41,003 nt of DNA. Origin: Gammaproteobacteria bacterium. Lineage in GTDB: Bacteria; Pseudomonadota; Gammaproteobacteria; Nitrosococcales; Methylophagaceae. The stretch is from NCBI GenBank assembly GCA_023488305.1, contig JAMDEF010000173.1, positions 1 to 41,003 of the forward strand, given 5' to 3'. The position numbers and the translations under genes are program-made. Under the pieces are notes generated by a model. It did not search any database and had not been told where the DNA came from. It saw only the letters and a program-made list of their open reading frames with translations. This document shows positions 38,797-41,003 of this stretch, piece after piece; position 1 is the stretch's first letter; the number at the start of each line of letters is the position of its first letter.

Positions 38797-38871
38797 GCGG
38801 GAATAGCTCAGTGGTAGAGCACAACCTTGCCAAGGTTGGGGTCGCGAGTTCGAATCTCGTTTCCCGCTCCA
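38797..38871 (+). tRNA. tRNA-Gly (anticodon GCC), CCA encoded
   Basis: GCGGGAA/TTCCCGC acceptor stem, CAACC-TTGCCAA-GGTTG anticodon arm, GAGTTCGAATCTC T-arm, 3' TCCA. Confidence 0.97.
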
Positions 38872-38949: not shown

Positions 38950-39023
38950 GGCTGGGTGGCAGAGTGGTCATGCAGCGGACTGCAACTCCGTGAACGCCGG
39001 TTCGATTCCGACCCCAGCCTCCA
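38950..39023 (+). tRNA. tRNA-Cys (anticodon GCA), CCA encoded
   Basis: GGCTGGG/CCCAGCC acceptor stem, CGGA-CTGCAAC-TCCG anticodon arm, CGGTTCGATTCCG T-arm, 3' TCCA. Confidence 0.97.
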
Positions 39024-39183
39024 TATTCTTGTTCCATACTGTACCATGATGATTATAAATGATTGTTTCTTAAGGAAAAATCATGTTTGGTAGTCTCATG
39101 TTGTCTCATTCTATTTCTTGACATCTCACCATTTTAGGGGCAACCTTCGGGGCAGCTTTCAGCTGTAATCAGGAGATGCCCCC

Positions 39184-40395
39184 ATGCCGTTATCTGATAT
39201 CAAAATTCGTAATGCAAAGCCGGGTATAAAGCCTGATGGTAGCCTTACGCATAAACCTTACCGTCTGAGCGATGAGAGGGGATTGTATTTGGAGGTCTCG
39301 CCAAAGGGTGGTAAATACTGGCGATTAAAATATCGTTTCGATGGAAAAGAAAAGCGTCTATCACTTGGGGTTTACCCAGATATATCTTTGAAAATTGCTC
39401 GCGATAGACGAGATGAACTTCGTTCTCAAATAGCCGTAGGAATTGATCCCTCAAATGCTCGCAAAGCAGAAAAACTCAGCAAAGCGGGTGCAGAAAGTTT
39501 TGAATTTGTTGCTAGAGAATGGCACGGTAAATTTCGAAACGGATGGTCGGATGATTATGCTGACAGAGTTCTAACTAATTTAGAAAATAATGTCTTCCCC
39601 TGGATTGGTACTCATCACATTTATGATATCACTGCATCTCAACTTCTAGCAGTATTGAGGCGAATTGAGAATCGAGGTGCATTAGACACAGCTCACAGAA
39701 CAAATCAGCAATGCGGGAAAGTTTTTAGGTATGCAGTGGCTACTGGAAGAGCTGAACGTGATCCTTCTCAAGATATTCGAGGTGCACTGCCACCTGTCAA
39801 ATCACAACATCATGCTTCACTAACTGAACCAAAAAAAATCGCAGAACTGTTAAAGGCAATTGATGGCTATTCTGGTTCTTATGTGACAGCTTGTGCGTTG
39901 AAATTAGCTCCATTGGTTTTCGTTCGGCCTAAAGAATTGAGAAGTGCTGAATGGACGGAGTTTGATTTGGAAAAAGCTGAGTGGCGTATTCCTGCTGAAA
40001 AGATGAAAATGCGATTACTGCACATTATTCCTTTATCTAAGCAGGCATTGGAGATCTTAAATGACCTTAAACCACTTACTGGTTTAGGAAAATATCTCTT
40101 TCCATCCATCCGAAGTTTATCCAGACCAATGAGTGAAAACACTATTAACGGTGCGTTGCGTCGACTGGGCTATACAAAAGAGGAAATGACTGGTCATGGA
40201 TTTAGAAGTATGGCCTCAACGATTCTCAATGAACAAAACTGGAATCGTGATGCTATCGAAAGACAGCTAGCCCATAGTGAACGAGATGGAGTTAGAGCAG
40301 CATATAACTATGCTGAATATTTACCAGAGCGTCAGCGCATGATGCAATCCTGGGCTGATTACCTTGATGAACTTAAATCTACTCAGTTGATTTGA
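39184..40395 (+). CDS. P4-type tyrosine recombinase/integrase
   Basis: N-terminal MPLSDIKIRNAKPGIKPDGSLTHKPYRLSDERGLYLEVSPKGGKYWRLKYRFDGKEKRLSLGVYP (DUF4102-like arm-binding domain); catalytic region with R..HGFRSMASTIL..H(S)ERDGVRAAYNYAEY. Confidence 0.96.
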   Translation: MPLSDIKIRNAKPGIKPDGSLTHKPYRLSDERGLYLEVSPKGGKYWRLKYRFDGKEKRLSLGVYPDISLKIARDRRDELRSQIAVGIDPSNARKAEKLSKAGAESFEFVAREWHGKFRNGWSDDYADRVLTNLENNVFPWIGTHHIYDITASQLLAVLRRIENRGALDTAHRTNQQCGKVFRYAVATGRAERDPSQDIRGALPPVKSQHHASLTEPKKIAELLKAIDGYSGSYVTACALKLAPLVFVRPKELRSAEWTEFDLEKAEWRIPAEKMKMRLLHIIPLSKQALEILNDLKPLTGLGKYLFPSIRSLSRPMSENTINGALRRLGYTKEEMTGHGFRSMASTILNEQNWNRDAIERQLAHSERDGVRAAYNYAEYLPERQRMMQSWADYLDELKSTQLI

Positions 40396-40550
40396 GTTTC
40401 ATATGTACAAATGTACAACACAAGCTATAGCTTAAAGTACACCATATCATCTAGCCGAATGCTGAAGATAAAATTTGTTCTGATCAGGTCTTCACAGCCC
40501 ACCTAGCTACCATTCATAATGGTCATATAGGTTTAATTCAAGAGTTTCGC

Positions 40551-40760
40551 ATGAGTAATGAGCTGCCGAGTATTAGGGATAATAATCCATTGCAATTAGT
40601 ACGAATTAAAGACATTGTCTCTATCACGACTTTGTCACGATCTACTATTTATAGGCTTGTCCAGAATAATCAATTTCCTGCTCCTATTAAGCTTACTCCA
40701 TACACGTCGGCGTGGCGTCACTGTGATATTGAATTATGGATTGAAAAGAGGGCTGCTTAA
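40551..40760 (+). CDS. AlpA family phage-type DNA-binding regulator
   Basis: 69 aa; LVRIKDIVSITTLSRSTIYRLVQNNQFPAPIKLTPYTSAWRHCDIELWIEKR, typical AlpA/excisionase winged-HTH. Confidence 0.92.
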   Translation: MSNELPSIRDNNPLQLVRIKDIVSITTLSRSTIYRLVQNNQFPAPIKLTPYTSAWRHCDIELWIEKRAA

Positions 40761-41003
40761 TGAATGAAAAATCTAATGTATTGCCAGTTGAGTTATCAGA
40801 TAGCCAAAAAAATAATATTCTTTCTACCCCCCCTGCAAATGATCCAATATTTGTTGAAGACAAATTATTTAAATTTCGTGTTGCTATTAGTAGAGAGGTT
40901 GCAAGATCATATTGGAATGCAAACCTCCGACAAAAACGATTGCTTACATTGGCAATTAGCCGTATTGATTATTCCAAGAAGGCGCCCAATTTAGTAAAAT
41001 GGA
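40760..41003 (+). CDS. Putative replication initiator (Rep_3-like), 3'-truncated by the window edge
   Basis: ATG at 40760 overlaps the alpA stop (TAATG); open to the window end: MNEKSNVLPVELSDSQKNNILSTPPANDPIFVEDKLFKFRVAISREVARSYWNANLRQKRLLTLAISRIDYSKKAPNLVKW. The segment ...NLRQKRLLTLAISRID resembles Rep_3-family N-termini. Not in the ORF track because there is no stop. Confidence 0.5.
   Translation, partial: MNEKSNVLPVELSDSQKNNILSTPPANDPIFVEDKLFKFRVAISREVARSYWNANLRQKRLLTLAISRIDYSKKAPNLVKW

Follow-up and report, generated by a model that had tools for sequence, protein, structure and literature searches.

A P4-type integrase and AlpA gene at tRNA-Cys in Methylophaga: the left end of a probable satellite-like or defence island

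Features of the tRNA-Cys locus

The window analysed is an entire contig (C77, 41,003 bases) of a Methylophaga MAG that totals 1.75 Mb in 173 contigs and is 56 % complete. Two tRNA genes lie near its right end, and about 2 kb of an element are present beyond the second of these before the contig ends. The features of this region are:

38797–38871, + strand: tRNA-Gly(gcc), host backbone (ARAGORN)
38950–39023, + strand: tRNA-Cys(gca), the 3′ end of which is the left attachment site (ARAGORN; homology with relatives that have an empty site stops right after the CCA)
39024–39183, + strand: left end of the element, a 160-bp leader from the att core to int (alignment with seven other tRNA-Cys elements)
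39184–40395, + strand: int, an intact P4-type tyrosine integrase of 403 aa (PF13356, PF22022, PF00589)
40551–40760, + strand: alpA, an AlpA-family DNA-binding regulator/excisionase of 69 aa (PF05930; phrog_2790)
40760–41002, + strand: 5′ part (81 codons) of an ORF that runs past the contig end (ORF call; no database match)

ARAGORN, the ORF coordinates and Pfam agree with a sequence-only reading of this DNA, which had described an intact tRNA-Cys with a P4-type integrase 160 bp further on. All three integrase domains (Arm-DNA-bind_3, Phage_int_M and Phage_integrase) scored far over their Pfam cut-offs, and the match to the PRK09692 family (266 bits) fell under the cut-off of that model. The regulator next to it had been called AlpA-like and matched PF05930 at 51 bits (cut-off 21, E=1.3e-13). 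When AlpA was used as a query against IMG/VR no match was found. Weak matches of AlpA to defence proteins in PADLOC (mad1, PDC-M06B) are expected of any AlpA-like HTH and were not read as a sign of defence. The third ORF, correctly reported to overlap alpA and to be cut at the end, shares its first base with the end of the alpA stop codon and runs off the contig. The one-base overlap suggests that it is translationally coupled to alpA.

The attL core at the 3′ end of tRNA-Cys is at most about 26 bp long (CGGTTCGATTCCGACCCCAGCCTCCA). The leader includes short repeats of the CCATA/TCTCAT type, which are candidate arm sites for the integrase, and a search of the leader for the host tRNA terminator found none. 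The GC content from 39024 to 41003 is 0.397, below all of 19 equal-sized backbone windows (0.432–0.484), in line with the earlier remark that the element's coding region looks more AT-rich than the backbone. This low GC content suggests a foreign origin.

Empty and occupied tRNA-Cys sites in relatives

The nearest relative at this locus is the sister species Methylophaga muralis (G020, NZ_MCRI01000002.1), with 93.7 % identity over 1.3 kb upstream (uvrC-pgsA-tRNA-Gly). The two sequences agree as far as the tRNA CCA and diverge after it. In M. muralis, tRNA-Cys is followed by a terminator (a GCGC stem and a T run) and a different gene, representing an empty site. Empty sites were found in eight congeners (G006, G007, G011, G016, G017, G020, G021 and G022), where the terminator lies 19–31 bp past tRNA-Cys and no P4-type integrase adjoins it. 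In the window and in four congeners (G003, which is M. aminisulfidivorans HyVt-380, DRHY01000321.1, as well as G004, G005 and G019), no terminator is found directly past tRNA-Cys and an integrase starts instead 157–166 bp beyond it. The integrases of these four congeners are 65–73 % identical to that of the window.

The empty site in the sister species together with the related integrases in four congeners speak strongly for the proposal that the left boundary of an integrative element lies at tRNA-Cys, and comparison with relatives provides good support for a genuine boundary. Alternative occupied and empty states of the site, which had been put forward as a check, are both seen among relatives.

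Traces of other events were seen at the same tRNA. In G008 (contig 3, near 196455), a 52-aa integrase remnant with 83 % identity to a relative is found approximately 306 bp past tRNA-Cys and represents a decayed past insertion. Arm-like repeats with no integrase follow tRNA-Cys in G009 and G018. A near-identical terminator that appears to be element-borne comes after the left tRNA-Cys copies in G012 (contig 19, L057) and G014 (contig 1, L059), and in G012 a different integrase-like ORF (368 aa) is also found there. Second tRNA-Cys copies are located 32 and 36 kb away in G012 and G014, respectively. Such elements may supply the tRNA that they occupy with a replacement terminator.

Islands carried at tRNA-Cys in congeners

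A complete 20.4-kb island is present at tRNA-Cys in G019 (contig 12, 2478–22880; L055, L023), bounded by two exact 25-bp copies of the tRNA 3′ end, the far copy being followed by the native terminator. A second copy of the tRNA-Cys 3′ end, suggested earlier as the mark of attR, is thus seen as an attL/attR pair in this relative, but in the 56 %-complete MAG the core is single copy even with up to 3 mismatches allowed. The right flank from M. muralis is also not present in the MAG.

The G019 island resembles the element in the window in its tRNA, its integrase (67 % identity, starting at 158 bp) and an AlpA of the same family. It differs in having an extra ORF between int and alpA, and in the genes after alpA, which are a small ORF followed by a RepB-type primase and a PriCT_2/AAA helicase; the ORF that follows alpA in the window is unrelated. 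Beyond the helicase, the G019 cargo includes an SNF2 helicase (C3a139-like), a type III methyltransferase, a type III restriction enzyme and a DrmD-like helicase, and this cluster of defence genes may be a composite system. A 582-aa protein in the same island had no Pfam or PADLOC match.

The islands in G004 and G005 contain int, ORFs, AlpA, a zinc-ribbon/Toprim primase and a DUF3987 helicase. Backbone-like genes return about 7 kb into that of G004, and its right end is undefined because no tRNA-end repeat of at least 9 bp was found downstream of tRNA-Cys. No virion genes were found among the proteins examined from the G019, G004 and G005 islands. All three are satellite-like or defence-island chassis. 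In Methylophaga, tRNA-Cys is thus a site at which islands of a replicative, satellite-like or defence type have attached repeatedly. Among four papers found on Methylophaga, genomic islands and integrases, no title or abstract concerned the tRNA-Cys site.

Relationships of the integrase

In a tree of 37 integrases, that of the window fell in a mostly Methylophaga group of 12 (support 93/90), whose members lie at tRNA-Cys, tRNA-Leu(gag) or tRNA-Arg(cct). The tRNA-Cys integrase of G003 was nearest to tRNA-Leu integrases (a 100/100 pair inside a 95/97 group), and target switching inside the group is therefore likely. Two Methylococcaceae genomes and one Syntrophaceae genome also have related integrases at tRNA-Cys. 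Occupation of tRNA-Cys does not appear to be a matter of simple vertical inheritance. The MAG includes a second, distant tyrosine integrase (G000:C17:2129–3325; 29 % identity, 427-aa frame).

Nature of the element

The element shares with phage P4 and P4-like satellites the integrase family (44 % identity to P4 Int), a tRNA target and a regulator of the AlpA/Vis family. The target of P4 is a tRNA-Leu. The window differs in that alpA adjoins int, and none of psu, delta, sid, epsilon or alpha of P4 is found in the visible 2 kb. The Gram-negative PICIs of the EcCICFT073 type are similar in the order int, alpA and then a putative replication ORF. PICIs are defined by an integrase, a replication module and a master regulator in conserved order, by unique att sites that are never used by prophages, by the absence of phage structural or lytic genes, and by a size of about 12–15 kb (PMC6092414). 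AlpA switches on the EcCICFT073 genes, and Vis, the P4 homologue of AlpA, is required for excision (PMC6092414). Int and alpA are seen in the visible 2 kb, and the third ORF has no match to a replication family. The definition of P4-like sets lists seven components, of which no more than two may be absent (PMC8628076); two of the seven (integrase and alpA) are present in the visible 2 kb, which is too short for either the P4-like or the PICI definition.

On balance, the window probably holds, at the 3′ end of Methylophaga tRNA-Cys, the left end of an int-alpA-replication integrative element with a P4/PICI-like chassis, an island that resembles phage satellites or carries defence genes. Direct observation shows that the site is occupied here but empty in the sister species, that the P4-type integrase is intact and lies at a conserved distance, and that AlpA is present; a tRNA-targeted element with a P4-type integrase and a relative with an empty site are both in evidence. 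Int would recombine the chromosomal tRNA-Cys with an attP bearing a copy of its 3′ end, which would restore the tRNA and push the native terminator to the far end of the element. AlpA would be an activator and/or excision factor, and an operon beginning right after alpA would enable the excised element to replicate autonomously. Past the contig end there would be cargo, probably with phage defence among it. The earlier satellite or PICI reading is supported indirectly, by congener islands with int, alpA, primase and helicase, one of them laden with defence genes, but the 'rep-like' character of the third ORF on which it also drew was not confirmed, and this ORF is unlike the primases of the congener islands. 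ICEs and prophages can likewise possess P4-type integrases and AlpA, and the chassis is therefore no proof of a satellite.

The 81 aa of the third ORF had no significant match in Pfam, NCBIfam, PHROGs, PADLOC, PDB or plasmids, nor in IMG/VR, GTDB contigs or 369 gammaproteobacterial genomes, and no other copy was found in the MAG. The lack of primase similarity would fit an integrated plasmid or integrative mobilizable element, in which a plasmid-type Rep_3 initiator accompanies int and alpA and the excised circle replicates in the manner of a plasmid and may be mobilised by conjugation. With a purpose-built Rep_3 profile, residues 41–77 align in register to the start of WH1 at 5.0 bits, a score exceeded by 19 of 5,000 shuffles, and the best phmmer match (E=0.0013) came from a small set of ORFs from Rep_3 loci. 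However, these 81 N-terminal residues had no match to PF01051 (Rep_3) in Pfam, tblastn against plasmids gave no match, and in a background search the ORF ranked 8 among about 21,000 ORFs with E=16. A Rep_3-like initiator is a possible lead and not an assignment, and the plasmid or mobilizable element is an unlikely, if the foremost, alternative. No Rep_3 gene was found in the MAG. An AlphaFold single-sequence model of the ORF (pLDDT 76, pTM 0.38), with one long helix, was of no help in placing it. A long (about 400–450 aa), divergent Rep_3 family with the motif ELKKHVxxIHxSNxLxLxQRK at its N-terminus was observed in several gammaproteobacterial genomes (L243–L251 and other loci).

A small satellite-like island with new defence cargo, replicating by an undescribed initiator family (represented by the orphan ORF coupled to alpA) in place of a primase/helicase pair, is an improbable reading of the element. 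An ICE with conjugation genes past the contig end, which the earlier reading had also left open, is rather improbable too. Many ICEs have a P4-type integrase and lie at tRNAs, but the G019 island and the starts of the G004 and G005 islands hold replication and defence genes, with no conjugation gene among the proteins examined. Least probable is that the element has decayed to a remnant or is a temperate prophage. Either would be in keeping with the remnants at tRNA-Cys in G008, G009 and G018 and with the presence of integrases of this family in phages, but both int and alpA are intact in the window.

Implications

A replicative satellite-like or defence island is thus the most likely identity of the element. 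It is real but of an ordinary kind, and the fragment leaves existing knowledge of such elements unchanged. The tRNA-Cys gene in Methylophaga takes up related yet different islands, at least one of which is an anti-phage defence island. As this gene is recurrently occupied, at least once by a defence island, it is a promising site at which to look for defence cargo and satellites among marine methylotrophs.
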